A stretch of 39,836 nucleotides of DNA from a virus. How positions within the stretch are numbered: the first letter of the stretch is position 1; every line of letters starts with the position of its first letter. A program made the translations under genes and the position numbers. The DNA is taken from the IMG/VR virus record IMGVR_UViG_3300006735_000074, positions 1 to 39,836 of that record, one strand, 5' to 3'. The notes below the pieces were generated by a model that did not search any database, had not been told where the DNA came from, and saw nothing but the letters and a program-made list of their open reading frames with translations. Shown one piece after another: positions 18,371 through 39,756 of the stretch.

Positions 18371-21300
18371 TGACGGTATATCGTAAGCAGTTATACCCCG
18401 CCAAAGTTCAGCCATTGGCTGCGAGTGATGGTTATCCTGCTAGTGGTTACTTTGCTATGCACATTACTTATCCTGATACTGAATATTCAGATGCAGTTAC
18501 TGATTGGGAATACGGAGAGAATACAAACGACCAATGGAAACAAGGATTGACCGTTCTTATTCGTACACCAATAGCAACATCAAGCGTACCTGCTGAAGAT
18601 ACTAACGTCATAGTAGTTGATTTGAAACAAGCCGCTACTGATGATACAAATAGCAAAACATACAATCTTGGTACTGAAGAAGCAACAAGGTTGATTGCAG
18701 CCAAGATAAACAGCCGTAGGGTCAAACAGGTAGGAGAACATAGCGTAACACGATACTTACGAGCAAGGTACGTTAGAATGTCAGGAAAGCCTACACATAC
18801 AGGTACTGCTACGATTGCTAAGGCAGCACAAACTTTGCGAGTTCAATGGGATGGGGCTTACAAACATGGTTATCCTTCTGATTTGCCCCAAACAGGCACA
18901 TTATCCTATACTGATGGAGATCATACAGGATTGTCTTTATCTTATACTGCAATAACTGCATTTAGAAGAGGGCCGAAAATGAACTCGGCAAGAAGAATAG
19001 CAGATCAAACCTCATTTGCTGATTTTACAATCACAGGTGATACTCTTGAGAATCTAATAAATCAGGTAGGAAATAGTTATCCCGATACTCTTTCAAGCGC
19101 AACAATCACAATTGCAGGTGAACCTGCGAAACACACCATTGTATTATCGTGGGAAGCAACAACACCTAACTCAGCAGGTGGTTATTGGGCTGCTGCTAAC
19201 GGTAGCCCTGTAATTCAAGGTCTTGGAACATCTATCCCAATATGGAAACTAACAGCAAAACCGATGGATGGCGGCAACATGAGCCTACCTGCAACAAACT
19301 ACGATTCAAGAGGTTCTACGGCTATTGCCCATACTACGGGGCATGGGTATGTTCGATTTAGTGTAGAAGGACTTAATTCATGCAACATGGCAGATATGCC
19401 ACCACCTGACTATACAGTAACCTCGCCATCTATTGCCGCTATTACCGAAGCGAACCCCGATACCCCTGCTTCAGGTGCAACAGGGGTTGTGAAACTTGCT
19501 GAATTAGAATATGGTACTACCTTGAATGCATCAGCAGGAGATATGTTTCACTTGAAGAGTGGATATAGGGCAACTGCAACAGCCGATTCTAACAATATGG
19601 TAACATATAGTCGAGATGAATTATCTAATTTGACATATGGTACTAACTTTTTGACGAAAGGAATTGACGGTACGGGCGATATTAATGTTCCTCGACCCAT
19701 ATTCTCGGCTAAGACTCTCAATAGTTCTCGTGTGAAGGGGCTACAAATCAGTAATGAGCATATGGTATTTGATGACATTCAGACAACAGATGATGCGGGG
19801 AACATATTAACTCTAACAGGAGACTCACCTTTGGGTGTGGTAATCAAAGATTTCACAGTTCAAAATACAAGAGAGAATCCTAAAACAGGTGAAGAAATCA
19901 CAGGCCCATCATCCCCCGATGGCAAATTAGAACCTAATTTGAGACTAGAATTACCCAACCCAAAGAAGATACCGGGAGAAATTTTCGTTAGAAGCGGCCA
20001 TGATCGTGTTCAAGCGTGGTCTAACATGACATGGGGGCTAGGTGGCCTAACAGCCCCTGACCCTCGTTCTAGCGGTGTTTTAGAGGCATCAGGGGGTGCT
20101 TCGCAGTTTGACACCCATGACCGTATGCTAATTTTCCATTGTAAGAGGCTATTGCATCCCGATATGGCTACGAAACAGGGTCTGACCCCCCACACTACCG
20201 CAGGGGCTGTTCCTAGCGGCTCTACACGCCTCTATGCGGCTCATAGGATAACAGACCACGCTGAGAGGGGTTCGGTGCTTACACAGACGAACAACGGCAC
20301 AGCAACGGGCTATCCCTTCCCTCACCATAGGATTCGCTTTGGTAGGCAAGGGCATTCATTCGTTACCCCAATGACTCAAAGAGGTACGCCTAATGCTATG
20401 AGAAGGCAATTACATAGAAGTCATGGTTCATCGTATTCCTTGCTTTTTGAAGCAGAAACGGAACATAAGCACTTTGGATTCGGTTCGGGCAAGACCTCTA
20501 ATTCTGCATCCGTCTTTGAGTTAGATACGCTTGAAGTTAAGGATGAATCCAATTACGAAGCCAATGGTTCGTTCTCATCTGAGGGCTTGCCGTTGTCAGA
20601 AATGGATGGATTTAGAATCCCTGACATAAGAACAAACAACAGTATCACCCAAAACAGCAGTTTTGACTATCTTATTGCACCCGGACAGGAACATACAGCA
20701 ACAACAGGTGCAGGTCATTTAGTAAGAACAGGCACTTTGAGTCGTACAACCACTACAAATTCAGGCCCAACTAGGCTTACTTTGACCTCTAATTTGACGG
20801 GTGGAAGCCGTTATAACACCGCAAGTGAGTTTTTGGTGAACGGATTTATCCTCGGAGACTATTCTTTGTCAGGAAGTAGGCCATTTGCCCCAATAATTAG
20901 CGAAGGATCTGCTGCTTATTTCGTGTCAGGATTGGAAGAAGGGGTCTTAGTACCCCGTTCAGGAACAGAATTGGCAACTGTTCCTCCACTTCTTTGCCAC
21001 GACCCTGAATATCTAAATATGGCCGTTACAACGCCCAACGCTGATGGTATAACCGCTACTTTTGGTGATTTTGCACTACTAAAAAAGGAAAATACAGGTA
21101 CAGGTTGTGTACCGGATGCCTTCTTGTGCAATTGGCTTGCTGAGTATAGCCACCCTGCACTACTTGGAACAAGCCGAGAACACTTCATGACCTTCCGATA
21201 TAGAGAGGCGGGGATGCCTCGTGCCTACAACTACCCCCCAACAAAGGGGTTGTTCCTTCGTAACCACTCTAACCCCTCTAGTGCAGGTGTGGCAATTGCT

Positions 21301-24300
21301 GCCGAACCCTTTGAAAGAATATATGTAAATCAATGGTTACAGAATTATGGGTACAATGGATTGAACGCAGGTGGGCATGGGAATATAGTCGGTCTTAAGT
21401 CAGCCAACGCTGTTCTTATGGGTCATACTACTGTTAGAGAGCCGCAGGGTACTATGAGACTACCTACCGAGTATGAGAATATAAGACATACAAGGGGTGA
21501 AGGTATAGGTGATAGTATCAACCCTGAGAAACTAAGTGGTACTATATCCTATGATGTGGACAATGATAGTGTTTCTTTCACGAAATATATTACAACTCTT
21601 GATAATATGGTCGGATATGATTACGGTAGGAGACTACCTGTAAGAGCATGGGGATTCAGAACAGGATCTGATGCCCTAGATATGTTAGCGGGCGACCCAA
21701 ATGAGAATACTAGCGCACAACAACCGATATATGGGAAAGGTCGTTTTGACGGGGGTATTCACGATTCAATGAATAAATTGCCAAATGCAACTACACACGG
21801 AGACTCTTGGGCATTCCCCGCAGATTACAACGGTGTGGAAAGAACCACGCCAATTGGTGTAATTCTTACAGACCATACAGCAGAAGCCACACCATTTGCT
21901 AGTATCGTTAGAAGAAGTAATTCAAGACCTTTGCAATCTGAGCAAAAAATAGGTATTGGTTTAACTCTTGGACATGAATCATTAGGATTAGTAAAACCTA
22001 CGGCTATGTCAGCAGGTAATTGGGAATCAAAGATTGACCCCAATGCTGCATCTACATTACCGTTAAAGGCCATACCAATGAATAAAGGTTCAGATCCATT
22101 TATTGATTTGACACAATATACGGGTTCATCTTCATACGCTCAGGCCAATTCTCAATCAGCAGTAAGTTCTACTCAATTTGGTGTTAGTGGCGTATTCTAT
22201 CATCTTAGAGGCAATGCTTTGCATACCAACGCATCTGCAATAGACCATTCCAATACATCAAATGTTCACTATCCTACAAGTGGTTGGGGAATAGGTACAC
22301 ATTCCAATTCAACAATTACAAGTCTATTACCTATACCTCTATCTGAAGTATCAGACCATAGACAAGTGCAATCAAGAACCGAACCAAGATTAGGATTTGT
22401 CATTGAAACAGAAAATGAGCGTCAGACAAATAAGAACATAGAATATGCGATTACATCTACTAAAGCGGCATCCTTGCATAGCGATTTAATCTTAGGGCAA
22501 CATTTCCCTGTAATGCCATCATGGACTGTAAACACAAAATTTACTACACATAACATGACAATCAATCCGAGTAGTCCAACAAGTCAATCTATATCTAATC
22601 CTTACACTTTGCCAACATGGAGTCCTGATTCAAAAACAGATAAAGGAGATGGCGGGCAGGGTGTTGCCTCTCTTGCAATATCAAACGCAGGTACAGGGTA
22701 TGCAGCAGGTAATCTAACTGCAACAGGTGGTGGTAGCGATGGTTCAGGATTTTCAGGAACATATACTATAAATCCTCTAGGTAACATAACTGCGTTTAAT
22801 ATAACAGGTGGTACGATTAACGGTACGGGTTTAAGTAATAGCGGGGGTAATGGTACATGGACTACAAATGGTGGTGGCGGGTCTAATGCAGCAGGTACGT
22901 TCAGTTACATAAAAGGTCAAAATGGTTTTGAAATTTCAGCAACAGCAGTAACTAATCAAGGAACAGGATATACCTCGCAACCCGAACCACTAATTGCAAA
23001 CATTGGCGGCCAACCCGTAGATACGGGCGGTTTAGGGTTCACTTTTACAATCAATACGGCCACCGGCACAATAGCAGCAGTTAGCATTACTAACTCAGGA
23101 ACAGGATATACTTCTGCGCCTACTATTGTAATGTCCAATGCCGGTTCTAGTGGAGTAGTAACCGCAACCTTAGTTACTGTATCAAATTCGCCACCAATAA
23201 TAGCAGCAAAGACTCATGCTAAGGATATATGGTCTGTTAGAGGATCAGCAGATTTGCCACCGTGGGGTGGCACATACATATTGCGTAAGACATACTTGAA
23301 TAGATTAGAACACGGCTCGTTATCTACTGAAGTAGAGGGAACAAGCGGCAATGCAACAACATCAAACCAAAGAAGAAAACAAATTGATTACTTCGTTAGA
23401 CCTGTTCGCCCGCTTAAGTTGTATGGCTTTGCATCAGACTTATTGCAAGATGGTTGGTTAGCAGGTGCAAGATCATCAACAGGCGATTCAAACTTTGAAT
23501 ATCAACCATTTACAAGAGACAACAGATATGGTGTATTTGAGGCTAATTTAGAAGAAACACTAGGGAATACTAATTTTGTTACAACAGCAGAAGGGGCATT
23601 TAGTATTGCATATCCTGATGCAAATGAGCATGATGTAACCTATCATTTAATGCCAAGTGCATCTATGTTACAATTCTTCAAATCAGATGCTGCAAGAAAA
23701 ACTATTGATGGTAACTTCAATCCTGAAATTGAACCAAGATACTCTCAAACTACACATCCGGGTGGTGGAGAAATAATTAACCAATCACAAGTAAAATACA
23801 CCGCTAACGGTACAGGCATAGGGGGAGACTTTGTTAAACATACAACCCCTGAAGGTATATCCTATACTCAAATGAATACATCTATGAGGCTATTCCCTCA
23901 ATTCAAAGTAGCAGATCATTTCAGCACCAACATAGTGCTTGAAGATGCAAGCCTTTTGCCATCAGCAGGAACACTATTCTTAGTAGGTAAAAGAGAAATA
24001 CACTATACAGGCAAAACCAAAAACAAACTTACAGGTGTTACTAACAGCACAGGGGTTAGTGATTTAACAGGAGAAATTTTAAGATACTATTCTAACAATG
24101 CATCTGATTCAGGCACACCATCTACTTTAGCAGATATACGACCTTTGACTATACCTCATTTAATTGCACCTACATTCGTAGATAATACAATTACATTATC
24201 CAAACAAGTGTCTGCACTATGGAATAGATATGATGTTACACAAGATGCTGTAAAGCAAACGACTCTCTCATATAGAGGGTTGTTAGAATATGACCCTACC

Positions 24301-25614
24301 GACTTTATGATGATTAATCAAAGTCCAATGATAATAGAAAATGGTAAAACAACAGCAAGAATCAAAACATCTAATTCTAGTATTAGAGAATTAAGATTCG
24401 ATGGAAAAGAATTGACAAGTAGTTATTTCCCCCCATATCTGTTTGATTCACAAGGATTCAATCTTAGAATAGCAGGACTAGATAAAGAAGAACAATCGTC
24501 ATCATTACTATTTCGTAATATCACTTCGGATAGTATTGTAGATGCGGGATTGAAAGAAGGAGACATATTGATGGGTCAGAAAGGGTTTGTAGGCATAAGA
24601 ACAAGTGATGCTGCTTTGATGTTACTAAATGATAGCGGTTCAGAATTAGCAGGATTCAATGTTACGCCTAGCAATTCATTGTTAGCAAAAGATAGAGAAG
24701 TCTCATCAACAATAGATGCTCATCCTTCTTTGAGATTAATTAACGATCACTCATCTATATTTACTGCTAGGAAAACTAGAGGATTGAACATTATGGAAAT
24801 TATTCGCAATCTTACCCAAATTGACGGAAAACAATTAGTAAATGAAAAGAATGGGTCTTTAGTATATTCATCGCCATTATTCATTAACAGAGGTTCTAAC
24901 TTAGGATTGGGAAGTGGAATACAAAGTGTTAGTGCAAGTAAAATGTATGATTCTCCAAATGAAATAGTGGTAGTAGGAGATTCTATGGCTGCTAATGAAA
25001 GAGTATTTGTTGTTGTGAAAGACTTAGAAAAAATGAAATTAAATGCTAATAAAGGTTCAGAAAGTAACTTAGTAAGGACATTGAGACAAGAGATACCGGG
25101 CTTGAAAACAAACAACGAAGCATTAAAGTTAGCAAAATCAATATTGTCTCGTGCTGAAAACGGTGCGCCTTTGATTAATATTAATGGTGCTTTGAAAGCA
25201 TCAACTATACAGCCCGGAGAAATAGTTACATTGAATCTACCAACTCACGGTATAACAGGAGAATTTGTTGTTTTTGAAGCAGAACACGATTATTCTAATT
25301 TGACAAGTAACTTTGTTATAGCGCAATATGACAAAGGAATTGAAGGTTTAATTTCAGACATACAAGCAATATCAGGTAATAGCCAACCATTAGATGAACA
25401 AGCAGGAAATGTAGTAGATATTGCAGAAATCTCACTTAGTAGCAAAGTTGAAATTGTAGCAGTTCATAGGATATATGTTCGTAATGTAAACAATGTCGGA
25501 TTTATTATTGGGGCGAAACACACTAATGGGATGGGTAAGATAGGGGTTCGTGATGGTAACAAGCGGGCAAGGCAGATTGGTACTAGCAAAGGGATATTCT
25601 ACGAGGTGAAATGA
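18364..25614 (+). CDS. Giant tail hub protein with PDZ-like and GTGY repeat parts
   Basis: This 2416-residue protein begins at ATG 18364, overlapping the previous stop. The first about 1400 residues are unrecognised beta-rich sequence. Residues about 1433-1602 hold three Gly-rich repeats (SNAGTGYAAGNLTATGGG, TNQGTGYTSQPEP, TNSGTGYTSAPTIVMSNAG), a motif common in phage tail proteins. Residues about 2026-2086 look like a PDZ domain (FRNITSDSIVDAGLKEGDIL, then a Gly turn and a closing helix). Residues about 2139-2336 resemble the C-terminal part of phage tail hub proteins of the gp27/D/XkdQ type, ending LKASTIQPGEIVTLNLPTHG and a final strand-helix YDKGIEGLISDIQA. The likely role is central hub of the baseplate that closes the tube tip. 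The DNA around 20000-21300 is visibly richer in GC than its surroundings. Confidence 0.6.
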   Translation: MVMTVYRKQLYPAKVQPLAASDGYPASGYFAMHITYPDTEYSDAVTDWEYGENTNDQWKQGLTVLIRTPIATSSVPAEDTNVIVVDLKQAATDDTNSKTYNLGTEEATRLIAAKINSRRVKQVGEHSVTRYLRARYVRMSGKPTHTGTATIAKAAQTLRVQWDGAYKHGYPSDLPQTGTLSYTDGDHTGLSLSYTAITAFRRGPKMNSARRIADQTSFADFTITGDTLENLINQVGNSYPDTLSSATITIAGEPAKHTIVLSWEATTPNSAGGYWAAANGSPVIQGLGTSIPIWKLTAKPMDGGNMSLPATNYDSRGSTAIAHTTGHGYVRFSVEGLNSCNMADMPPPDYTVTSPSIAAITEANPDTPASGATGVVKLAELEYGTTLNASAGDMFHLKSGYRATATADSNNMVTYSRDELSNLTYGTNFLTKGIDGTGDINVPRPIFSAKTLNSSRVKGLQISNEHMVFDDIQTTDDAGNILTLTGDSPLGVVIKDFTVQNTRENPKTGEEITGPSSPDGKLEPNLRLELPNPKKIPGEIFVRSGHDRVQAWSNMTWGLGGLTAPDPRSSGVLEASGGASQFDTHDRMLIFHCKRLLHPDMATKQGLTPHTTAGAVPSGSTRLYAAHRITDHAERGSVLTQTNNGTATGYPFPHHRIRFGRQGHSFVTPMTQRGTPNAMRRQLHRSHGSSYSLLFEAETEHKHFGFGSGKTSNSASVFELDTLEVKDESNYEANGSFSSEGLPLSEMDGFRIPDIRTNNSITQNSSFDYLIAPGQEHTATTGAGHLVRTGTLSRTTTTNSGPTRLTLTSNLTGGSRYNTASEFLVNGFILGDYSLSGSRPFAPIISEGSAAYFVSGLEEGVLVPRSGTELATVPPLLCHDPEYLNMAVTTPNADGITATFGDFALLKKENTGTGCVPDAFLCNWLAEYSHPALLGTSREHFMTFRYREAGMPRAYNYPPTKGLFLRNHSNPSSAGVAIAAEPFERIYVNQWLQNYGYNGLNAGGHGNIVGLKSANAVLMGHTTVREPQGTMRLPTEYENIRHTRGEGIGDSINPEKLSGTISYDVDNDSVSFTKYITTLDNMVGYDYGRRLPVRAWGFRTGSDALDMLAGDPNENTSAQQPIYGKGRFDGGIHDSMNKLPNATTHGDSWAFPADYNGVERTTPIGVILTDHTAEATPFASIVRRSNSRPLQSEQKIGIGLTLGHESLGLVKPTAMSAGNWESKIDPNAASTLPLKAIPMNKGSDPFIDLTQYTGSSSYAQANSQSAVSSTQFGVSGVFYHLRGNALHTNASAIDHSNTSNVHYPTSGWGIGTHSNSTITSLLPIPLSEVSDHRQVQSRTEPRLGFVIETENERQTNKNIEYAITSTKAASLHSDLILGQHFPVMPSWTVNTKFTTHNMTINPSSPTSQSISNPYTLPTWSPDSKTDKGDGGQGVASLAISNAGTGYAAGNLTATGGGSDGSGFSGTYTINPLGNITAFNITGGTINGTGLSNSGGNGTWTTNGGGGSNAAGTFSYIKGQNGFEISATAVTNQGTGYTSQPEPLIANIGGQPVDTGGLGFTFTINTATGTIAAVSITNSGTGYTSAPTIVMSNAGSSGVVTATLVTVSNSPPIIAAKTHAKDIWSVRGSADLPPWGGTYILRKTYLNRLEHGSLSTEVEGTSGNATTSNQRRKQIDYFVRPVRPLKLYGFASDLLQDGWLAGARSSTGDSNFEYQPFTRDNRYGVFEANLEETLGNTNFVTTAEGAFSIAYPDANEHDVTYHLMPSASMLQFFKSDAARKTIDGNFNPEIEPRYSQTTHPGGGEIINQSQVKYTANGTGIGGDFVKHTTPEGISYTQMNTSMRLFPQFKVADHFSTNIVLEDASLLPSAGTLFLVGKREIHYTGKTKNKLTGVTNSTGVSDLTGEILRYYSNNASDSGTPSTLADIRPLTIPHLIAPTFVDNTITLSKQVSALWNRYDVTQDAVKQTTLSYRGLLEYDPTDFMMINQSPMIIENGKTTARIKTSNSSIRELRFDGKELTSSYFPPYLFDSQGFNLRIAGLDKEEQSSSLLFRNITSDSIVDAGLKEGDILMGQKGFVGIRTSDAALMLLNDSGSELAGFNVTPSNSLLAKDREVSSTIDAHPSLRLINDHSSIFTARKTRGLNIMEIIRNLTQIDGKQLVNEKNGSLVYSSPLFINRGSNLGLGSGIQSVSASKMYDSPNEIVVVGDSMAANERVFVVVKDLEKMKLNANKGSESNLVRTLRQEIPGLKTNNEALKLAKSILSRAENGAPLININGALKASTIQPGEIVTLNLPTHGITGEFVVFEAEHDYSNLTSNFVIAQYDKGIEGLISDIQAISGNSQPLDEQAGNVVDIAEISLSSKVEIVAVHRIYVRNVNNVGFIIGAKHTNGMGKIGVRDGNKRARQIGTSKGIFYEVK
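22660..23170 (+). repeat. GTGY-type glycine-rich protein repeats
   Basis: Three copies of an N-x-G-T-G-Y motif, each followed by a short beta segment, lie inside the hub gene. The last two copies (NQGTGYTSQP and NSGTGYTSAP) are nearly the same. Confidence 0.7.
25603..25609 (+). promoter_or_regulatory. Shine-Dalgarno GAGGTGA deciding the start of the 25614 gene
   Basis: GAGGTGA ends one base before the ATG at 25611 and four bases before the adjacent in-frame ATG at 25614. The second ATG has the more usual spacing. Confidence 0.55.
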
Positions 25615-29644: not shown

Positions 29645-30349
29645 TCAAGCCCTCGTCATCTTTACCTTTTCTTCAATTACTGCATCCTCGCTGTTGAGAC
29701 AATGAAGGATGCGAGAAGCGGTAATTTTCCCTACACCTTCAATCACTTGTAATTCCTTTGGTGATGAAGCGGTAATTTCGCTAATTGAGCCGAATTGTTC
29801 CAAGAGTTTTTTTGCTATTGCTTCACTACATCCAAGCATACGGAGAGCATCTACTCTCTTATCTTCTGATGCAGTTTTTCTCATGTAGCGATATGTAGTA
29901 GATGATCCTAACGTACCATCCTTTTCATACCTCTTAGATATGAATCGTGCAGCAGATGATTTGTCAGGAAACGTGCATATACTAATGTCATAGTCATTAT
30001 GAAATCTAGCAATAGAGCCAAGAAACGCATTGAACACTTTAGCAAACGCTATTTTTTTGCCCCCTCTTTTTGCCTGTAATATGTAATGGTCTATTGTTCC
30101 ATGAACAACTAAAACCAATTGATTATAATTGTCATCAAGATTTTGTAACTGTCTTTCAAGATGACCTGAATAAAGACTACCCATGTAATCTTGAATACTC
30201 TTTGCTTCAATCCCAACATTACCAAAGGCGTAGTCTGTAATTAAATTCTCTCTCTCCTCATACGGAAGCCCCTTTCTATCGCAATATTTCTTAACTAAAA
30301 CTTCTAAGCCTGAACGCTCTCGATGATCTATATACATCATTTTACTCAT
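29645..30349 (-). CDS. XPF/ERCC4-type nuclease with helix-hairpin-helix
   Basis: This 234-residue protein is built like the catalytic half of archaeal XPF/Hef. The ERCC4 domain has D8 and R10 (IDHRERSG), D39 (LITDYAFGN) and the signature E48-A-K50-S-I-Q-D54, where the family usually has E-R-K-x-x-x-D. The Glu, Lys and Asp are kept while Arg is Ala. Residues about 165-217 form a double helix-hairpin-helix (LRMLGCSEAIAKKLLEQFGS, then LQVIEGVGKITASRIL). XPF-family nucleases cut flaps, forks and other branched DNA, so it likely resolves replication or recombination intermediates. It has no helicase domain. GAGGGATAG lies ahead of the ATG. Confidence in family is high. Confidence 0.88.
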   Translation of the reverse strand: MSKMMYIDHRERSGLEVLVKKYCDRKGLPYEERENLITDYAFGNVGIEAKSIQDYMGSLYSGHLERQLQNLDDNYNQLVLVVHGTIDHYILQAKRGGKKIAFAKVFNAFLGSIARFHNDYDISICTFPDKSSAARFISKRYEKDGTLGSSTTYRYMRKTASEDKRVDALRMLGCSEAIAKKLLEQFGSISEITASSPKELQVIEGVGKITASRILHCLNSEDAVIEEKVKMTRA

Positions 30350-30766: not shown

Positions 30767-31870
30767 TTAATCTCTCTTCACACCTTTACCATCAAAGAAC
30801 GGACATTTGCCTATGCACAATCCTTCTTGGTATATCTTAGGGCATGATGGTGTGAGATAGTTTCTTGATGCACCATGCACCAACATTTCGTTAGTTATTT
30901 TAGGGCTATAATCGGCCCATTCAAGATCCGCAATAAATTGATGAGTTTTTCTAACGACATCTAAAGAAGATACCTTTGAATTGCTTGGGGGTCTAGCAAA
31001 CTCTCTAAAATAGTCCATTAGATACATCATAAGGTATGCACGAGACTGATGGGGGGGATTGTCGCCCTTCGTACAACAAGCGGCCTCTAAGCATGGTAAT
31101 ACAGGTATTCCTGATACATTACCTGCATTGACCGATATATCTTCAGCATCAAACTTCTGAAATATGCCCGACATACCATTTAGATAGTTTGTATCTCCTT
31201 CGACTATCTCTATTTCTATTCCTTTCTGACCTGATACTTTCATGCCACCTTTAGCATGACGGGCTTCATTGATGATGTAATCCCAACCCATTTCTAACTC
31301 TTCAATAGATAACGGAATAGACCATAACTTACGCTTGTAATTGTATGTGTTTGGTATTCTAATATGTCTATCGGGGCGAAATGATACAACGGGGTCTATG
31401 GTTACTAAATCCATATCATTAATCCACTTGTTAATTAATACTCTCCCTGAGAACAACAAATTACTCAATTCGTTTGGTGGCAACTCATGTGTTTTATCTA
31501 ACATAACCCAAATATGAAAACCGCCACCTGAAAACCATACTGCATGACGAATGTTACGATCTCTAAGATAAGATGCTAAGATTAAGGTATCTTTGGTGCA
31601 TCTATGTCCTGTTTCAGAATCTTCAATGTCGAGCATTTGTGCGGCTCTCCCTTTATCCAAATCTACTACAAAGTGAGGTACGATAGCAGTATTGTATTCA
31701 CAACGGTTGCCTTTGGGTTTCAATTGCCTAAATCCATATACCGTTGTAGTGAGGTTTTGTTTACCATTTGTTCTCTTGATATAATTCTGTAATCCATCCA
31801 TGCTCAATACTACTTTTCGTGATTTCATATCCATTTCACGAGGAAAATGATTGAACAAATGATTACTCAA
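30767..31870 (-). CDS. Archaeo-eukaryotic primase, PriS-like fused to PriL-like Fe-S domain
   Basis: This 367-residue protein has the AEP catalytic signature: D70-L-D72 (FVVDLDKG), SGGGFH119 (HAVWFSGGGFHIWVML) and a third motif RPDRHIRIPNTYNYK (166-179). The C-terminal third (about 255-360) resembles the PriL-type Fe-S domain. It has C260 (LPCLEAACC) and then SRAYLMMYLMDYFREFARPP, followed by SRNYLTPSCPKIYQEG, with C343, C352 and C356. Fusions of this kind occur in archaeal plasmids and viruses and act as one-piece primase. The TTG at 31870 is preferred as start because GAGGTG lies seven bases upstream inside the end of the Cas4-like gene. It presumably lays down primers with the MCM-like helicase encoded downstream. 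Confidence 0.85.
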   Translation of the reverse strand: MSNHLFNHFPREMDMKSRKVVLSMDGLQNYIKRTNGKQNLTTTVYGFRQLKPKGNRCEYNTAIVPHFVVDLDKGRAAQMLDIEDSETGHRCTKDTLILASYLRDRNIRHAVWFSGGGFHIWVMLDKTHELPPNELSNLLFSGRVLINKWINDMDLVTIDPVVSFRPDRHIRIPNTYNYKRKLWSIPLSIEELEMGWDYIINEARHAKGGMKVSGQKGIEIEIVEGDTNYLNGMSGIFQKFDAEDISVNAGNVSGIPVLPCLEAACCTKGDNPPHQSRAYLMMYLMDYFREFARPPSNSKVSSLDVVRKTHQFIADLEWADYSPKITNEMLVHGASRNYLTPSCPKIYQEGLCIGKCPFFDGKGVKRD

Positions 31871-32795
31871 ACTTCATCACCTCTCCAAATCTAGGGCAGA
31901 ATCCTTTGAGTTTGCACCACGGCTCACATACTGTTTTTTGTCGGTATGGTGATATAAGATCAAATTGCCGGCCATGCTGTAACCCATCATACTGTATGTG
32001 TGTAGAAATTAACTCATCTAATTTCTTTAACATAGATTGAATCTCTTGAACCCTAACAGGTTCTCTACCTCTAAATAAGTCCTCTCCACCTGTAAAATCC
32101 CATCCCCAAAACAAAGCATCTCTCCCCCCAAACTCTTCGTGATCACAATGCTTTATTAGATAAGCATAGAAAGCCATTTCTTCACGCATACCTTCCCATT
32201 TGAAATTACTTTCTTTCCATTTACCTGTTTTCAATTCGTGAATATGTAAGTTTCCTTCTGAATCTTCAAACAATCTATCTACTATCCCATTAAGATGAAC
32301 CGTAACCCCCTTGATTTGAATAATGGCATTCAACGGTACTTCATTACCAACAGGCAAAAAATATTTAGAATCAGAATCCATGAATCTTCTTGCTTCTACT
32401 ACCATGATTTTTCTTAGATGCTCTTGTTCACCTAATTCAAAATCTCCTCTTTCGGGATTAGATTCAGGCATAAGGCTAAGAAACCATTCTAATACTGCAT
32501 GGTAGCCTTTAGACTTCAATTTAATTGCATGGTCTAAATCAAAGTTAGCATACCAATCATCAATAGCATCGTGAACATTACTACCTCTAGTCATAGCATC
32601 ATTAGGCGGCTCTTTGACCCCTAATACATACTTGATGAAGTATTGCTGCATACAAAAATCGGATGCCCCAAGTGATGATTTAGATACCCTCATCATAGCA
32701 TCCAAATGAAAACTCGGATGCCATTGATATGACGATTCTTTATCTGAATTAGGTATAGGCACACTACGAGGCGGGCGAATCTTCATCAGATCCAT
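31863..32795 (-). CDS. Cas4/RecB-like PD-(D/E)XK nuclease with Fe-S cluster
   Basis: This 310-residue protein has the order of motifs of Cas4/AddB-type nucleases. The first cysteine is C48 (GASDFCMQQYFIKYVLG), followed by His75 (RGSNVHDAIDDW), D173 (HLNGIVDRL), E187-L-K189 (LHIHELKTGKW), a REEMAFYAYL helix in place of the Q-x-x-x-Y motif, and a C-terminal trio C290, C294, C300 (CEPWCKLKGFC). The four Cys would hold a 4Fe-4S cluster. Cas4-family enzymes are 5'-3' exonucleases that make 3' overhangs. No other CRISPR gene is nearby, so this is a viral recombination or replication nuclease, next to a RecA-type ATPase that would use the overhangs. It overlaps the primase gene by eight bases. Confidence 0.87.
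   Translation of the reverse strand: MDLMKIRPPRSVPIPNSDKESSYQWHPSFHLDAMMRVSKSSLGASDFCMQQYFIKYVLGVKEPPNDAMTRGSNVHDAIDDWYANFDLDHAIKLKSKGYHAVLEWFLSLMPESNPERGDFELGEQEHLRKIMVVEARRFMDSDSKYFLPVGNEVPLNAIIQIKGVTVHLNGIVDRLFEDSEGNLHIHELKTGKWKESNFKWEGMREEMAFYAYLIKHCDHEEFGGRDALFWGWDFTGGEDLFRGREPVRVQEIQSMLKKLDELISTHIQYDGLQHGRQFDLISPYRQKTVCEPWCKLKGFCPRFGEVMKFE
31878..31883 (-). promoter_or_regulatory. Shine-Dalgarno GAGGTG supporting a TTG start of the primase
   Basis: GAGGTG on the minus strand is seven bases from TTG 31870. Alternative ATG starts (12 or more codons further in) have no such site. Confidence 0.6.
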
Positions 32796-32801: not shown

Positions 32802-34109
32802 TCACTCAGTAGAGAATGAACCATCACGCAATCCATGCCAACCGAACCATTCACCACCTTCTGTATCTTGACGATAGATAGTAACTGTACCTGATGACTT
32901 CAAACTCACACCATTAGACTTCAATATAGCCGTAGATGTAACAACGCCTGTTCTTCGGCCTGTATCGTCTATCTCTTCATCTAATGTCATGTATATGATT
33001 TGAGTCAATGCACTTTCGGTTTTACGAGGCAACCAATGCGGTACACCCTCGCCTTTGATTTCATTACCATTACTATCATAATCGGCTTTGAAGTGAGTAA
33101 TAACATAACAATGAACACCTCTACGAGACAATTCTTTCATCAAGTCAAGAGCCGCCATGAAGTAATTGCTACGGATATACCAATTGGTTCTACCAACGCT
33201 AGTAGTGGCCTTTTTACCCGATACTGCAATAGCGTCAGCCCCTAAGTCAAGATCAGCAATCTTCATGTTTAATTCACATATCTTCAAGAAACTATCAGCA
33301 CCATCAAGCATAACTGTCTTTAGCCATCTCTCAGGCATTTTACCGTGTTGATTGAAGTATTCCTCTTGAGTATCTACTTGTCTCAAAGCATCCTGTAAGA
33401 TGTTTATTATATTCAAGTGAGTCTTAGGAAAATCATATGGTACTCTACCATCTTCTTTGTAAATTACATAAGGATTGATTGCTAGAATGTTATCCTTGCG
33501 ATGAGGATAGTTTTTCATTATAGAAGCATGAGCGTGTCCATCGAAATCAATATCCCATACTTCAGCACCACTTGCTGCTTCTTCATCAGTTAGGCTATCA
33601 AATACGATAGAAGATTTACCTGCTTTAGGCGGGGCTACTATACCGCAGAAAACATGATGATTCTTTTGTTCTTTCATAAATGCTTGAGCCTGACGTGCCT
33701 TTTCAACAGCAGTTAGGTGTTTACCATACCCTGTAAGATTATCTTCAGCATCAGCGATAGATGGTGGGGTGAATGTAGAAGTAATAGCAGGTTTAACTGC
33801 GGGTATTGCATTCATTAGAAATTCCTTGTTAATCTTTTTCTCTTCTAAATCTTTTTGAGATGTTGCTTTAACAGGCGGTTCTTTGCTGATGAAGCCTTGT
33901 GCTAATACAGTAGGTGCGGGCTTCTTCTTTACAGGTGGCGGTGCGACTGATTGTTTGTCTAATTCCTCTAAAGACATCTTATCATGACCTTCAGGTAGAG
34001 GTTTTATCTCCTCTCCCCATACGTTAGTCTTTTTCTTCTTTACAGGTGGCGGTGCGACATCTGATGTGTCCTCTTCTTTCCAACCATCTAGGAATCCTGT
34101 ACCACTCAC
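32802..34109 (-). CDS. RecA/Sak4-type recombinase ATPase
   Basis: This 435-residue protein starts at GTG 34109, with GGGGTGA about six bases upstream. The first about 130 residues are a low-complexity linker with the repeat APPPVKKK twice (19-26 and 56-63). The ATPase has Walker A VAPPKAGKSS (158-167), a DIDFDGHAH segment that fits the catalytic acid region, and Walker B KTVMLDGAD (264-272). The end (CYVITHFKADYDSN, TESALTQIIYMTLDEE) fits a RecA-like fold as in Sak4/RadA relatives of viruses. The likely role is strand annealing or exchange on ssDNA. Neighbours are the nuclease that makes the overhangs and the ssDNA-binding candidate. Archaeal RadA and DnaB-type ATPase are alternatives; the short core favours Sak4-like. 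Confidence 0.75.
   Translation of the reverse strand: MSGTGFLDGWKEEDTSDVAPPPVKKKKTNVWGEEIKPLPEGHDKMSLEELDKQSVAPPPVKKKPAPTVLAQGFISKEPPVKATSQKDLEEKKINKEFLMNAIPAVKPAITSTFTPPSIADAEDNLTGYGKHLTAVEKARQAQAFMKEQKNHHVFCGIVAPPKAGKSSIVFDSLTDEEAASGAEVWDIDFDGHAHASIMKNYPHRKDNILAINPYVIYKEDGRVPYDFPKTHLNIINILQDALRQVDTQEEYFNQHGKMPERWLKTVMLDGADSFLKICELNMKIADLDLGADAIAVSGKKATTSVGRTNWYIRSNYFMAALDLMKELSRRGVHCYVITHFKADYDSNGNEIKGEGVPHWLPRKTESALTQIIYMTLDEEIDDTGRRTGVVTSTAILKSNGVSLKSSGTVTIYRQDTEGGEWFGWHGLRDGSFSTE
33922..33947. repeat. 26-bp direct repeat, copy 1
   Basis: A perfect 26-base repeat inside the RecA-type gene that encodes the second APPPVKKK. Its other copy is at 34033-34058. Confidence 0.9.
34033..34058. 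repeat. 26-bp direct repeat, copy 2
   Basis: This is the other perfect copy of the 26-base sequence at 33922-33947, starting 111 bases further on. It encodes the first APPPVKKK near the N-terminus of the RecA-type protein. Confidence 0.9.
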
Positions 34110-34111
34110 GC

Positions 34112-35431
34112 CTAATCACCCCTAAATCCATCAAGCCCGCCAAGATCGTTAGAATCTTCGGTAGGCGTTTCTGCTATGAATGCACGACTTGGTATAGCGT
34201 ATATGTTGTATGCGTCAATGTTCAATCCTATGTCTCCATCATTTCTTTCATAGGTTCTAGTTTTACCAACTACGATTACTTGTGTTCCCGTAGTGTATTC
34301 TCTCCATTCATCGTTTTTATTCACTTTGAATGCGTTATGGTGTTCTTCTAACCCTTTTGATAGGTTGATGTATAGAGCAGAATTAGCATCTTCTCTTCTC
34401 ATGCTATTGCTACTAATCCTCATAGAGAATTGTGTTCCGCCTTCAGCCCACTCTAATTCCCTACCAACGTAGTCTATGTATTCAACAGTACCTTTGAATG
34501 AAAATGTAGGGCCAATTTTGTTAGCACTATATGATGACTCAAATGAGTTTTGTTCATGATAATCAAAGATTTGTGTTAAATCATTTAGATGTGGCACAAA
34601 TTGAGTAAGGTATTGTGCAGGATCAAATAATTTCTCTACTTTAGGTAAATGCTCATCATCTACCCATCCAAGACCATAGTTAGGTTCTATATTGCCTGTT
34701 TGCAAAAGGAATCCTGACCCGTCTTTGTAGTCTATTTTTTCGGCTTTGAATCTAATAGGGGTATTCATGCGGAGATTAGTCATTCCTGCATCCCATCGGC
34801 ACTTCAAAGTAATAGGTATATCAAATGGGCCTTGAGATAGCAATTTGTCTGTTTCATTACCTACAAACAACCATGTTCTTTCGTATGAATAAGCATCCAT
34901 AGGCTTACTGTTTCTATTCATCATACAAACATAGAATTTCTGATTAGGTATAGCGATAGCCCAAGCCGGAATATCTGTTTCTCGACCTTCTTCGGTGTGT
35001 ACGACTTGATCTTGTGCATTAGCAATAAGCCATTTATCTTCTTGGAAATATGCCCTACATACAGGAACAGTAATTTCTTTATTGCTATACGGCTTGATGC
35101 CGCTAGTCAATACTGCTTGTAAATTAGACATAGCAGATGTTACTGCTAATTGCCTTGCATCTTCTTTTGTATCTCTTACGCCTTTGTATGCTACAATCAT
35201 ACCAACATATTCAGTACCTTTGCTACCACTTGATGCGGATTTTCTGTTTTGTGTTACTTGGAATGCACCAATCAGCCAATCTTGGTAATCTTCATCTGCT
35301 TCATCTAAATTACCGTTGCACTCATCAAAAGCATCTTTGAATCCGGCTTTCCACCAATCCAAAAGTGCCTGTTTAGTTTCATCTAAAGTCCATCCTTTCA
35401 TTTCTCCTATCTTCTTCAATTCATCATTCAT
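34112..35431 (-). CDS. Probable ssDNA-binding OB-fold protein (RPA-like)
   Basis: This 439-residue protein starts at ATG 35431 with AAGGAG about nine bases upstream. The N-terminal 60 residues are helical and acidic. The body holds several beta-rich blocks that look like OB folds (VGMIVAYKGVRDTKEDARQ, KFYVCMMNRNSKPMDAYS, TFSFKGTVEYIDYVGRELEW, EYTTGTQVIVVGKTRTYERN, GLNIDAYNIYAI). The C-terminus is acidic (TPTEDSNDLGGLDGFRGD), as in single-stranded DNA-binding proteins that recruit partners by their tail. It sits directly upstream (in transcription order) of the RecA-type ATPase with no spacer. The call rests on fold pattern and context, not on a diagnostic motif. Confidence 0.55.
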   Translation of the reverse strand: MNDELKKIGEMKGWTLDETKQALLDWWKAGFKDAFDECNGNLDEADEDYQDWLIGAFQVTQNRKSASSGSKGTEYVGMIVAYKGVRDTKEDARQLAVTSAMSNLQAVLTSGIKPYSNKEITVPVCRAYFQEDKWLIANAQDQVVHTEEGRETDIPAWAIAIPNQKFYVCMMNRNSKPMDAYSYERTWLFVGNETDKLLSQGPFDIPITLKCRWDAGMTNLRMNTPIRFKAEKIDYKDGSGFLLQTGNIEPNYGLGWVDDEHLPKVEKLFDPAQYLTQFVPHLNDLTQIFDYHEQNSFESSYSANKIGPTFSFKGTVEYIDYVGRELEWAEGGTQFSMRISSNSMRREDANSALYINLSKGLEEHHNAFKVNKNDEWREYTTGTQVIVVGKTRTYERNDGDIGLNIDAYNIYAIPSRAFIAETPTEDSNDLGGLDGFRGD

Positions 35432-35454: not shown

Positions 35455-35844
35455 TTATCGGACATCGGCTTTACTATTAACCTCTCTTATCTCATCCAAA
35501 TAGTCTAAAGCATCCTTAACTTCTTGATGAGTATTTGGTTGAACAAGGACACCATTAGCCGTTTTTACCATCATTAAACCACTTGTTGTGCTTGATAAAT
35601 CTTCTAGCCCTTTTATAATTTGTAATATTTTACTTATCTCATTTTCTTTAGAATACGTTGTGCGGAGAGTTAAGCCGACTTCTGATAATGCACGAGCCGC
35701 ACCCGCTTCGATATTAGTAAACCATAATTCAGGTCTGATAATATAACCACATTTTCGTTCTATTGATTGAACGCATTTTATGTCGCCTCTAATTGTAGAA
35801 GCCAAGATAATTACATCTCTATCCTTCTGATTCAAGATTGACAT
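35455..35844 (-). CDS. Hypothetical protein next to the ssDNA-binding gene
   Basis: This 129-residue protein overlaps the end of the ligase-like gene by 26 bases. The N-half mixes strands and helices with two Cys (KDRDVIILASTIRGDIKCVQ, RKCGYIIRPELWFTN). The C-half is helical (ENEISKILQIIKGLEDLSS, HQEVKDALDYLDEIRE). The start at 35844 has a GAGGAATTAGG-like upstream sequence. No known family is recognised. Tight linkage to the OB-fold and ligase-like genes suggests a replication or repair partner. Confidence 0.6.
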   Translation of the reverse strand: MSILNQKDRDVIILASTIRGDIKCVQSIERKCGYIIRPELWFTNIEAGAARALSEVGLTLRTTYSKENEISKILQIIKGLEDLSSTTSGLMMVKTANGVLVQPNTHQEVKDALDYLDEIREVNSKADVR

Positions 35845-37243
35845 AACCTAATTCCTCAACACCTAGACAATCCGCAATACCTGCATTTTCAGCCAATCCT
35901 ACTATGTTGCAACTCATGTATGCCCCAATATCACCCCAACCTGACGATAGTATATCCACTTCAACAAACAAAGGAGATTCAACTTTTATTGCTTCACCTT
36001 CTAATCTTTTGAATGGTGAACAAAAGCGTTTGAAATCTTGATCTGATTCTACTTCAGTTACAGGATAATAGTCATATCCATCTCTTACACCAATTTTCCA
36101 TAGTATAATCGGTTTGCCGCCATCATTTGATTTAGCAACACGCCCTGATATAATTCTAACAATTCTTTCTTTCTTAGCGGGATTTAACAATGCTACTTCT
36201 TCAATGGTATTTTGATAAGTTAATATTCCTCTTGCATTTCTTAATAATACAGGCAATTCACTATTTGTTATGCCTATAACCATGTGTGGTGAATCTAATT
36301 TTATCATATCTTTGATTGCCCATGAAGGTGCAACTGATTCAAAGTATTCTCTTCTCAACCTGTATGTCTGTTGCACATCATCAGGATCTAACCAATCAAT
36401 TAACAACAAAGGGTTATCTCTATGTTCTGCATAATCGCACAAGTATATTCCATACTTCAATCCTACCGATTCAACCCATTTCCTAATCCATTCATCATCA
36501 TCAGCAATCTCACTACCTGATGGGGTAAAACCAACAGTCTTGGTTGAGGTATGATGGATAGATACCCATGAACCTTCTACAATCTCGGCATAGCAATTAG
36601 AAAATGATATTGCTTCAGGACTTTTTACAAGAACAGGCATAGGTATCATTAGAGGCATACCTCTCATTGGCCTTATTTTAGCGTAATTAAATGCACCTAA
36701 AGACAAATCCCTTACTGTATTTTGTAATCCTAAAAGATTGACACTTGTTCGTATATGATGAAATGGTTGGTCGTAAGCAAGTCCTAACGCTCTCACGACA
36801 TCTCTACGCCTTATTGGAGATGCACGAACAGATAGTCGCATCAATAGTGGGTGTAAATCCCTTTTACTTATTCTTTCAAACAACGGGCGTAATAACCACG
36901 ATCTTGTAGTATTGTCAGGGGCTTCTAAGATATTATGAATACGGCCAACAATTGCATTGGCACTACCTTTAGTGTTTTCAACTTCGGATAAAGAACATAG
37001 GATATGTATTGGGTCAGGGTTCTCTTCTACTTCTTCAGGATAAGCGTCAGTTAGTAAAAAGAAAATCTCCCTGAAATCTTCATCACTAAGCCTATTGCCA
37101 ATACCATCTTTAGGATAAAAGAATGATACAACAGTCCATGATTCATCCATAGATGCTCTTATGTTGTTAGCAACAATTTCTGCACGATTTCTCAATGAAT
37201 AAGAATCCATAACTCGCCACGATTCTGCAAGAGAACGATACAT
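35819..37243 (-). CDS. ATP-dependent DNA ligase-like protein with catalytic residues missing
   Basis: This 474-residue protein starts at ATG 37243, five bases after the stop of the zinc-finger gene; an upstream ATG at 37309 would overlap that gene by 61 bases. The layout follows ATP-dependent DNA ligases. A helical N-domain comes first (SWLLRPLFERISKRDLHPLL, then RRRDVVRALGLAYDQPF), followed by a linker RPMRGMPLMIPMPV like the PG-x-P-x-x-P-M linker. A segment YAEIVEGSWVSIHHTSTKTV aligns with E-x-K-x-D-G-x-R-x-Q-x-H, and LLLIDWLDPDD with LRREYFESV fits the D-x-L ... (E/L)RR-x-x-L-E region. The catalytic Lys of K-x-D-G is replaced by Ile221, Asp by Glu and Arg by Trp. RGILTY replaces the EG-(V/I)-(M/V)-x-K motif. 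It is likely a non-catalytic ligase relative that binds nicked DNA or a partner. Family call moderate; loss of activity is inference. Confidence 0.5.
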   Translation of the reverse strand: MYRSLAESWRVMDSYSLRNRAEIVANNIRASMDESWTVVSFFYPKDGIGNRLSDEDFREIFFLLTDAYPEEVEENPDPIHILCSLSEVENTKGSANAIVGRIHNILEAPDNTTRSWLLRPLFERISKRDLHPLLMRLSVRASPIRRRDVVRALGLAYDQPFHHIRTSVNLLGLQNTVRDLSLGAFNYAKIRPMRGMPLMIPMPVLVKSPEAISFSNCYAEIVEGSWVSIHHTSTKTVGFTPSGSEIADDDEWIRKWVESVGLKYGIYLCDYAEHRDNPLLLIDWLDPDDVQQTYRLRREYFESVAPSWAIKDMIKLDSPHMVIGITNSELPVLLRNARGILTYQNTIEEVALLNPAKKERIVRIISGRVAKSNDGGKPIILWKIGVRDGYDYYPVTEVESDQDFKRFCSPFKRLEGEAIKVESPLFVEVDILSSGWGDIGAYMSCNIVGLAENAGIADCLGVEELGYVNLESEG

Positions 37244-37248: not shown

Positions 37249-37452
37249 CTACAATAACCCCTTCAATCGTCTTTCTTCTTTTTTCGATTTCAAATAACAT
37301 GGGCCGCATTTGATATGCTCACGTTTATGATCTCCTATATTTCCTTTAGTTTTGGTAGTTATTGTTTCATTACATACACTACATTTTGTAACAACCGAAC
37401 CACGAAAAAAACGAGGTTTTTCTTTTTTATAATCTATCTTGTTCCCCCCCAT
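37249..37452 (-). CDS. Small basic zinc-finger protein, 67 residues
   Basis: From ATG 37452 (an alternative TTG lies nine bases upstream) the protein is MGGNKIDYKKEKPRFFRGSV, then a zinc finger with CSVC (23-26), a His-rich segment DHKREHIKCGPC carrying the second Cys pair, and a Lys/Arg-rich tail (YLKSKKEERRLKGLL). This arrangement suggests one structural zinc and nucleic acid binding. Its start overlaps the end of the next upstream gene by 26 bases. Function unknown. Confidence 0.65.
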   Translation of the reverse strand: MGGNKIDYKKEKPRFFRGSVVTKCSVCNETITTKTKGNIGDHKREHIKCGPCYLKSKKEERRLKGLL

Positions 37453-37849
37453 AAACTTCAATCCACGGCTTCATAACATCGTCATACAAATCTTGGTTGC
37501 CGTCAAATAAATTCATAATTTCAGACTCACCTTTAGATGACAAAAACCATCTAGGCTCATCTTTACCTGAACGATTTTGCATGGCCTTTACATTTTTTTG
37601 AATGACTTGTTCACCAACATATGATAAAAATGAAAGAGATACTGCATTACCTGTTGCATTGGCTACAATATAAACACAATCAAAACAAAGACTTAGAGGA
37701 CTTCTATTAGCAAAAACACGAACCCTATCCCATAATTGATAAGCCAATTCAATTAATTCATCGGGTTCATCACATGATGCTAACATTAATTTTTTAATTA
37801 CATCATAATGATGTGCTTTGAAATCATCTAAACTATCCCATTTACTCAT
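37427..37849 (-). CDS. Hypothetical protein with possible TFIIB/cyclin-like repeat
   Basis: This 140-residue protein starts with an ATG next to the stop of the previous gene. GAGGGG lies upstream. Residues about 30-92 (DELIELAYQLWDRVRVFANR, then SPLSLCFDCVYIVANATGN) resemble one cyclin-type repeat of archaeal TFB. TFB repeats carry (G/N)-(R/K)-S-P followed by A-x-A-x-(I/L)-Y-(I/L)-A and then a helix with an HTH. The typical second repeat, the zinc ribbon and the B-reader/linker region are absent. The C-terminal 45 residues are unrecognised. If real, it would be a one-domain TFB relative acting on viral or host transcription. The match is weak and based on eye alignment. Confidence 0.35.
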   Translation of the reverse strand: MSKWDSLDDFKAHHYDVIKKLMLASCDEPDELIELAYQLWDRVRVFANRSPLSLCFDCVYIVANATGNAVSLSFLSYVGEQVIQKNVKAMQNRSGKDEPRWFLSSKGESEIMNLFDGNQDLYDDVMKPWIEVYGGEQDRL

Positions 37850-38156
37850 TATCTACCCATCCCCTCGCTTCTCTTAGCGGTTCATTTTCAACGACTTCCC
37901 ATGCCCCTTCATCTTCTATAACGTCTGAAAGATAATCTCTCAGTTCTCTCGCCTCTTTTTTAGTTAGGAAAAACCCAACTCTTGTATATCCTGTATGCCC
38001 CGTTTTTGAGGGTACAATTCTACACATTCTAATGTTTAACACACGATTATTATATGCGTTAGATGTAATGATATGCAATTCTTCACCAAGATGACATGAA
38101 ACATCTACTTTACCATGTACCTTGTTGTGATAATCATGTTTCTTGTTCGTTTCCAT
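37842..38156 (-). CDS. Hypothetical protein, possible PC4-like ssDNA-binding fold
   Basis: This 104-residue protein starts at ATG 38156 with AGGAG about eight bases upstream and overlaps the next gene by eight bases. Residues about 28-84 have the PC4 layout: a beta stretch (NNRVLNIRMCRIVPSKTGHT), then YTRVGFFLTKKEARELRDYL, where PC4 has G-x-x-P-x-(R/K)-K-G-(I/V)-(S/A)-L-x-x-(E/D)-Q-W-x-x-L, and a closing helix SDVIEDEG. PC4 proteins are ssDNA-binding dimers. The basic N-terminus (METNKKHDYHNKVHGK) would fit nucleic acid binding. The neighbouring gene (37427) may be TFIIB-like. This is a pattern match by eye, so it is tentative. Confidence 0.4.
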   Translation of the reverse strand: METNKKHDYHNKVHGKVDVSCHLGEELHIITSNAYNNRVLNIRMCRIVPSKTGHTGYTRVGFFLTKKEARELRDYLSDVIEDEGAWEVVENEPLREARGWVDNE

Positions 38157-38473: not shown

Positions 38474-38965
38474 TTACTCTTCCTCTCTTATACTTTGTTT
38501 CAACCTTATTGCGGTTTTATCCGTAACAACGTGAATATCATTCCATTTTACCTCAAATGTATTTTTCTTACAATGAGGACATTTACCATCAACAACTTGC
38601 TGATATACCTGCCACGGATTAGCAGGTTCTACTCTAATGACTAAGCCGCATGAACATACAGCAACATCGCCAATCATACCTTTAGGTATATTCAAAACAT
38701 CTCCATCTGAGTCAAATGCTCTTTCTATACCCAAAGTAACATTCCAACCAATTTCATTACCCAATTGTGCGATAAAATCATGATGATCGAATAGACTTCT
38801 CTCATTTGCAGATACAGTAGGCGAATACATTTCAACCAATGTTAATTCTGTTTCTCCTGTTCTAATGTATTTACCCACTTTAGGCAATATCCATTCTCCA
38901 TTAGGCACTAATGATTGCCATAATCGTAAAGCAAACTCAACTTCATTTTGACTAATTGCCATCAT
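38474..38965 (-). CDS. Hypothetical protein with C-terminal zinc ribbon
   Basis: This 163-residue protein starts at ATG 38965 or the adjacent ATG at 38962. The N-part is helical (FALRLWQSLVPNGEWILP) with GKYIRTGETELTLVE at 31-45. The C-part has a zinc-ribbon pattern CSCG (C104, C106) and CPHC (C129, C132), separated by 22 residues. The rest is beta-like (TFEVKWNDIHVVTDKTAIRL). The start overlaps the mini zinc-ribbon gene at 38952-39101 by 14 bases. Function unknown. Confidence 0.6.
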   Translation of the reverse strand: MMAISQNEVEFALRLWQSLVPNGEWILPKVGKYIRTGETELTLVEMYSPTVSANERSLFDHHDFIAQLGNEIGWNVTLGIERAFDSDGDVLNIPKGMIGDVAVCSCGLVIRVEPANPWQVYQQVVDGKCPHCKKNTFEVKWNDIHVVTDKTAIRLKQSIREEE

Positions 38966-39101
38966 ACCACACCCATTTCTTGCATGATTGACAGTATAAT
39001 ATTGGTCTTGTCTCTTTAGAAATTATATCATATCTAGTATCTCTATCCATCCGAGAGCCGCAAGCATCGCAACGATCTTCATCATCCATTACCATTATCA
39101 T
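38952..39101 (-). CDS. Mini zinc-ribbon protein, 49 residues
   Basis: This 49-codon gene runs from ATG 39101 to TAG at 38952-38954. The protein begins MIMVMDDEDRCDACGSRMDR and ends LYCQSCKKWVWYDGN. Two CxxC pairs (11-14 and 37-40), each in a short hairpin with an aromatic-rich end (KKWVWYDGN), define a zinc ribbon. Its ATG overlaps the stop of the upstream gene (ATGA) and its own stop lies inside the start of the next gene. This fills a gap of more than 130 bases that would otherwise be empty. Function unknown; it may act on transcription or join a replication complex. Confidence 0.7.
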   Translation of the reverse strand: MIMVMDDEDRCDACGSRMDRDTRYDIISKETRPILYCQSCKKWVWYDGN

Positions 39102-39406
39102 AATACGCCCTCTAATTCAGAATCACTAAGCAAAGAAACATCTTTCAACCATCTCTTGACCCCCCGACTAGCACCTTTAGTCCTCTCTCTTTCGTAATGT
39201 AATAGCCATTCCTGAACCATTACTAATCTATCATCTATGGTATCAAGAGCCTTTGCTTTCTCGACCCCCGCCATCTCCTCATACTGTTTTGTACCAAGTA
39301 ATGCACCTCTTTCTGCTCTTATCTCTAAAAGCATCTCCTTCCACGGTTCAGATAACATTCTGTATCTTCTTTCAATAGCGTATGCTTTGCCTTTGTCGTC
39401 TTTCAT
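39098..39406 (-). CDS. Hypothetical helical protein, 102 residues
   Basis: The ATG at 39406 is preferred because GAGGAAGA lies six bases upstream; a GTG two codons earlier is also in frame. The protein is charged and helical (AIERRYRMLSEPWKEMLLEI, then RAERGALLG and a long LDTIDDRLVMVQEWLLHYER). The tail is short (LKDVSLLSDSELEGVL). No cysteine or membrane segment is present. The helix pattern suggests a coiled coil. I recognise no family. It overlaps the mini zinc-ribbon gene by four bases. Confidence 0.6.
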   Translation of the reverse strand: MKDDKGKAYAIERRYRMLSEPWKEMLLEIRAERGALLGTKQYEEMAGVEKAKALDTIDDRLVMVQEWLLHYERERTKGASRGVKRWLKDVSLLSDSELEGVL

Positions 39407-39408
39407 AA

Positions 39409-39756
39409 TCACTCTTCCTCTTTTTTCTTATCAGGGGTTATTCTTAGATTATCATATTCTTTTTTTGAAGGTATTCGATAGACTTTTTTTCTCCTCTTCA
39501 TTACCACTAACTCAACAAAAAATGCTAAAGTGAAATAAATTATAGCAACAGCAGATATAATCATACCATTTTGACATAGCAATTCTAAATTGCTATTTGT
39601 TTCATACCTAATCTCTAACTTGGAAGAATTAAAAAATCCTAAACCTCCTATGCCAATTAAGACTAGGTAATTGAATAATTTCTTGTATCCCATATTAAAC
39701 ACCGAATAGAGTTTTGTTCTTAATCTCTCATCTGCTTCCATTCTTGATATTCCCAT
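39409..39756 (-). CDS. Small membrane protein with two transmembrane helices
   Basis: This 115-residue protein has a basic N-terminus and two hydrophobic segments: YLVLIGIGGLGFF (about 30-42) and MIISAVAIIYFTLAFFVELV (about 65-84). These are followed by a basic stretch (MKRRKKVYR) and a Lys/Glu-rich tail. Both ends probably lie on the cytoplasmic side with a short loop between. The role is unknown; a small membrane protein in an early viral operon could be involved in exclusion, lysis or host membrane change. Alternative in-frame ATG starts at 39741 would shorten the N-terminus by five residues. Confidence 0.6.
   Translation of the reverse strand: MGISRMEADERLRTKLYSVFNMGYKKLFNYLVLIGIGGLGFFNSSKLEIRYETNSNLELLCQNGMIISAVAIIYFTLAFFVELVVMKRRKKVYRIPSKKEYDNLRITPDKKKEEE

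Follow-up and report, generated by a model that had tools for sequence, protein, structure and literature searches.

A DNA ligase homologue lacking most catalytic residues in a conserved operon of marine, probably archaeal, tailed viruses

Can a DNA ligase that has lost the residues for ligation become a fixed part of a viral operon, and if so, what might it do there? The question is raised by an ORF of 474 codons (ATG at 37243, stop at 35819, minus strand) in a 39,836-nucleotide stretch of viral DNA (IMG/VR record IMGVR_UViG_3300006735_000074, here called the window), in which a sequence-only reading had seen the layout of an ATP-dependent DNA ligase with all catalytic motifs lost. The frame is open as far as 37309, and the start in relatives lies approximately at the Met at 37243. 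The features of this putative pseudo-ligase (PL) are:

35819..37243, minus strand: PL coding sequence, 474 aa, based on the ORF, a full-length profile match, AlphaFold2 and Foldseek, and dN/dS
36674..37243, minus strand: DNA-ligase DBD-like helical domain, PL residues 1-190; hhalign of this part alone, all-helical model
37064..37093, minus strand: RLSDEDFREI, PL residues 51-60, the most conserved family-specific motif; (near-)invariant alignment columns
36803..36838, minus strand: basic loop R136..R147, shortened, in place of the ligase-invariant GxxRxG DNA-binding loop
36179..36673, minus strand: nucleotidyltransferase-like domain, PL residues 191-355, catalytically degenerate; hhalign of this part alone, beta-rich model
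36566..36586, minus strand: motif I equivalent EIVEGSW, PL residues 220-226; the Gly remains, without the Lys and Asp
36389..36409, minus strand: motif III equivalent LLLIDWL, PL residues 279-285; Asp kept, aromatic lost
36215..36235, minus strand: motif IV equivalent ARGILTY, PL residues 337-343; most members lack the catalytic Glu, and Tyr stands in place of Lys
35822..36163, minus strand: OB-fold-like C-terminal domain, PL residues 361-474; colinear with ligase OB, strands in the model, motif VI basic residues lost

Relationship to ATP-dependent DNA ligases

As a single sequence, PL gave only noise (DED, HEAT) against Pfam, PHROG and PDB sequences, and it falls below the curated Pfam PF01068 cut-off. 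Scans of IMG/VR with the protein, then with successive alignments, recovered 9, 38 and 64 loci, the relatives being 26-99% identical and located on contigs of up to 108 kb. A profile of 43 family members was compared with ten genuine ATP-dependent ligases, from haloarchaea, actinobacteria, proteobacteria and HGTV-1. The alignment is colinear and takes in 424 columns, starting at the N-terminus and reaching as far as the OB domain (hhalign 95.9% probability, E 5.1e-9, score 77.7); 22 controls, with either profile reversed or the family columns shuffled 20 times, scored at most 22.9. Taken alone, the N-domain and the nucleotidyltransferase part each align with the corresponding ligase region in the expected, colinear position (E 3e-4 for each), while the OB part is weak (E 0.03), yet in register. 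The family profile also matched another ligase set (hhalign 89.9%, E 1.7e-6), and an HMM built from ligases only detected a family member among 3,323 frames (E 2.7e-4).

An AlphaFold2 model of PL from 41 sequences reached pLDDT 87.4 and pTM 0.66 (an earlier run with 6 sequences, at pLDDT 46, was too weak). Searched with Foldseek, it matched DNA ligases or ligase complexes in all 50 PDB matches listed, with the ligases of T. gammatolerans, Thermococcus sp. 1519 and P. furiosus at the top (best E 3.2e-17, ranging to 1e-16). Its matches among viral models were, for the most part, DNA ligases too. Global TM-scores against ligases are low (0.3-0.4) and the rmsd is large, as expected for three rigid domains that are placed differently; the structural evidence is therefore local agreement in 3Di and sequence, not a single global superposition.

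Chance similarity is excluded by the profile-profile comparison with its controls together with the structure, and the layout that had been proposed is borne out: alignment and predicted fold give good support for true homology between PL and the ATP-dependent DNA ligases of archaeal type, with their three domains (DBD, nucleotidyltransferase, OB). That it is instead unrelated to ligases, a convergent helical and beta protein misassigned by profile methods, or else a decaying gene, is extremely improbable: the missing Pfam, PHROG and PDB sequence matches would suit such a reading, but it is opposed by the full-length colinear alignment and clean controls, by the makeup of the PDB matches listed, and by the ligase HMM match and the purifying selection described below.

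The closest comparison is with the archaeal/eukaryotic ligase I type (P. furiosus, T. gammatolerans and A. fulgidus Lig; PF04675, PF01068 and PF04679), which has the same three-domain order and fold over the full length. PL differs from it in the missing catalytic Lys, in the degeneracy of motifs I, Ia, III, IV, V and VI, and in the absence of both the segment from the Gly-Glu motif to motif III and the GxxRxG loop of the DBD.

The catalytic motifs

Residues 220-226 (EIVEGSW) show the changes in motif I that the sequence-only reading had described, Lys to Ile, Asp to Glu and Arg to Trp, and the loss of the Lys extends to all 57 distinct members with a readable motif across all loci. Among the 43 aligned members, the Lys column of KxDGxR holds I, V, S, T, E, P, H, N, R or Y but never Lys, and the Asp column E, R or Q (Asp in 0/43); the Gly is invariant, and the last position is Arg in 21 of 43 and otherwise W, F or Y. 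KxDG was found nowhere in the 43 proteins, so no alternative register restores the motif. The best-scoring hhalign alignment places E220 opposite the conserved Glu of vExKxDG and sets a gap against the Lys column, so that deletion of the Lys, rather than substitution, is a second possible reading.

The remaining motifs are similarly worn. The motif Ia Arg is replaced, the Glu of the Gly-Glu motif is Ile or Val in 43/43, and the segment between this motif and motif III is deleted, the ligase-invariant F315 and R321 having gone with it. Motif III keeps its Asp in 43/43, with V, I, C or L for the aromatic residue. Motif IV (where the quoted RGILTY is indeed found) has Glu in only 3/43, and Tyr, Phe or His at the Lys position in every member; the KxK of motif V is unrecognisable (a clade bearing an RFC-like gene keeps a nearby Lys), and RFPRxxxxRxDK of motif VI is absent from the aligned OB part. 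What is kept comprises the motif I Gly, the motif III Asp, a conserved His and an Arg after motif III; the quoted LRREYFESV is also present. The claim that all catalytic motifs are lost consequently holds for I, Ia, IV, V and VI, and only in part for III.

PL is very probably a catalytically dead ligase homologue. Since the GER form is present in divergent clades, loss of the Lys is most simply older than the common ancestor of the family, and the chemistry of adenylation and nick sealing would have been lost before that point.

Might some residual or altered chemistry survive? Some Lys-mutant ligases are able to carry out step 3 on pre-adenylated ends, and PL could on this account seal such ends or use another nucleophile, for instance Lys311, which is invariant (43/43). 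This is very improbable: the motif I Asp, the Ia Arg, the Glu of the Gly-Glu motif, the motif IV Glu and Lys and the residues of motifs V and VI are gone along with the deleted segment, and K311, which maps between motifs III and IV and not to any known catalytic position, is unsupported as a replacement nucleophile.

Operon, selection and host

The gene order around PL is h-g-f-e-PL-d-c-b, followed by EXO and often by a, z and XPF. It is the same in the 47 loci examined, save at contig ends or where neighbours were not found, and adjacent genes frequently touch or overlap. The neighbours in the window are:

39098..39412, minus strand: gene h, 104 aa, conserved upstream neighbour (40/47 loci)
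38474..38965, minus strand: gene g, 163 aa, conserved upstream neighbour (42/47 loci)
37842..38156, minus strand: gene f, 104 aa, conserved upstream neighbour (45/47 loci)
37427..37849, minus strand: gene e, 140 aa, conserved upstream neighbour (46/47 loci)
35455..35844, minus strand: gene d, 129 aa, its start overlapping the PL stop by 26 nt; directly after PL in nearly all loci
34112..35431, minus strand: gene c, 439 aa, conserved in 46/47 loci
32802..34109, minus strand: gene b, predicted P-loop ATPase from its motifs (GK[ST] Walker A, DGAD), with a weak AAA_24 match; 46/47 loci
31863..32795, minus strand: EXO, PD-(D/E)XK nuclease (PF12705, E 4.6e-17); in 33 loci
29645..30349, minus strand: XPF, ERCC4/XPF-type nuclease with HhH (E 5.8e-11)

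PL has dN/dS values of 0.025-0.117 (NG86; 17 pairs with a defined ratio), and a decaying gene is rejected on this range. It is under purifying selection in a rigidly collinear operon, and the suggestion of a dead ligase in a compact viral operon can be extended to the whole family. Strong selection on a protein without sealing residues implies some other job.

We infer gene c to be RPA/SSB-like and gene b RecA/Sak4-like. Gene d resembles a degenerate LAGLIDADG fold (GYxIRPExWF, then EEITxILxxIxG) and matched the homing endonuclease 5gkk in the PDB weakly (E 0.17); it is possibly LAGLIDADG-like. Just upstream of PL, a small zinc-finger-like ORF of 70 aa with CxxC...CxxC (37249-37461, minus strand) is present in only 2 loci. 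The structural half of the window contains two very large ORFs side by side (11735-18370 and 18364-25614, plus strand), encoding 2,211 and 2,416 aa. DNA methyltransferases of differing types occur in the operon region of relatives (L122:10273-11367, minus; L125:2988-4301 and 4561-5715, plus).

One clade (L042/L043/L053-L065; 9 of 34 records) has an archaeal RFC-like clamp loader between d and c (L124:15378-16358, plus, and relatives). PolB and the primase large subunit lie downstream in the L043 record, and PolB also in that of L042. In records that are possibly incomplete, no canonical ATP-dependent ligase above the Pfam cut-off was found among 37, and neither an NAD-dependent ligase nor PCNA among 21, the PCNA search including records of the RFC clade.

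Which viruses are these? In one relative the head-module portal resembles those of haloviruses HVTV-1/HCTV, and the genome encodes a thermosome-like group II chaperonin (L123:4612-6231, minus; best PDB match 1a6d, E 5e-112). The portal and chaperonin together make an archaeal host likely, and the viruses are likely marine tailed viruses of archaea. Poseidoniales are plausible hosts, given that this portal/MCP clade lies among viruses of marine archaea (PMC8651126). Magroviruses, marine archaeal tailed viruses of Poseidoniales, are reported to carry PolB, a DNA ligase and an ERCC4 nuclease (PMC10160649), a gene content resembling that of the PL viruses as far as the published description goes.

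Relatives of PL did not turn up in GTDB genome contigs searched with the family alignment, nor did relatives of PL, b or c in GenBank phages (tblastn). HVTV-1, HCTV-1, vir335, vir519 and HGTV-1 gave no match to the family profile in a search that had no positive control. The ligase of the halovirus HGTV-1 resembles PL in being viral, in its archaeal host and in its similar length, and was among the Foldseek matches (R4T9C5); unlike PL, it keeps KxDGxR (as KVDGYR) and exceeds the PF01068 cut-off.

A further peculiarity lies in the head module, where a second nucleotidyltransferase domain of ligase type, also degenerate, is part of a protein of ~1,110-1,185 aa located between the portal and the head protease (L120:8039-11509, plus; L127:6353-9853, minus; L132:11087-14416, minus; L140-L145). 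Weak PF01068 matches repeatedly fell in this protein of ~1,150 aa, for which HVTV1_113, considered as a counterpart, has no similarity. Its domain matched ligases with hhalign probability 85%, E 6e-6 and score 49.5, against no more than 24 in 20 shuffles. At the motif I position the sequence reads WVVQKKPEGKRVFVEKKG, with a Lys displaced by one residue and no Asp, so that its catalytic status is ambiguous. The domain is closer to real ligases (49.5) than to PL (26.9), which suggests that its origin is separate.

Possible roles of the pseudo-ligase

The scaffold that survives in PL consists of the helical DBD-like domain, the nucleotidyltransferase shell and the OB-like domain, with the acidic motif at residues 51-60 strongly conserved in the family form RLSDEDxREI. 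The GxxRxG loop contacts the DNA minor groove in ligases, as in LIG1 structures. The loop that replaces it in PL is two residues shorter, with a near-invariant Arg146 within a basic run, and the nucleotidyltransferase and OB parts are net acidic. PL may still touch DNA in some other way, but recognition of nicks in the usual manner should not be taken for granted, and the earlier idea of a nick sensor is possible in weakened form. With the GxxRxG loop and the basic residues of motif VI/OB lost and two domains acidic, DNA binding itself is an inference, and a purely protein-protein scaffold could also be envisaged.

Conservation among replication genes favours a role in replication or recombination. 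We lean slightly towards a pseudo-ligase kept as a non-catalytic, DNA-engaging scaffold in an early replication/recombination operon, catalysis having been lost before the family ancestor; the chances that it has a specific structural role in these processes seem evenly balanced. PL would work alongside the products of genes b, c, d and EXO (partners guessed from synteny), holding or bridging DNA at ends, junctions or ssDNA-dsDNA borders and positioning these partners, and sealing of viral DNA would be left to the host ligase. A precedent is human Lig4 K273A, a scaffold without catalysis that still promotes DNA repair by end joining (PMC9638927): by analogy, a ligase scaffold can work without catalysis, although Lig4 K273A is an engineered point mutant of an active enzyme, and PL naturally lacks the catalytic residues throughout its family.

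Alternatively, PL could be a decoy or inhibitor that occupies nicks or contacts the host ligase or clamp, blocking host sealing or repair and favouring viral recombination. A host-type ligase layout without catalysis would suit such a protein, as would the lack of any canonical ligase above the cut-off in the virus records, but family members as little as 26% identical remain locked among replication genes, dN/dS is low, and the viruses presumably need host sealing. A clamp-binding factor, as had also been suggested, is likewise weakened: the family has no conserved PIP box, only scattered matches mostly within a predicted helix, and candidates such as QWPVVHFF were rejected as helical and unconserved. 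A decoy is accordingly unlikely.

It is also rather improbable that PL is a ligase-derived clamp or processivity factor, closing round DNA and sliding along or tethering it for the viral replisome. The three-domain ligase architecture would lend itself to this, as would the clade with a clamp loader gene two genes from PL in which PCNA was not detected in the records searched; RFC is, however, absent from 25 of the 34 records, host PCNA could serve, and the DNA-contact loop of the DBD is altered.

To return to the scaffold that we favour, a broader picture can be offered only tentatively: in this family of marine archaeal tailed viruses, a pseudo-ligase may be a core structural part of replication or recombination, as a clamp or synapsis scaffold, alongside the second degenerate domain in the head module, the ligase fold having been recruited twice for non-catalytic use in one lineage.

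Kinases and proteases provide familiar cases of pseudoenzymes, and ligase homologues are known as well. A description of an inactive viral ligase, or of a naturally dead ligase as a core viral operon gene, was not found in the open literature; as far as that literature shows, what is new here is that a naturally dead ligase has become a fixed, core member of an operon in one lineage of viruses. PL provides a testable case for non-catalytic ligase functions, as engineered dead Lig4 has done. For marine archaeal viruses, annotations of "DNA ligase" can mislead on who seals viral DNA, and the absence of a database match, as for PL, can mislead on it likewise.
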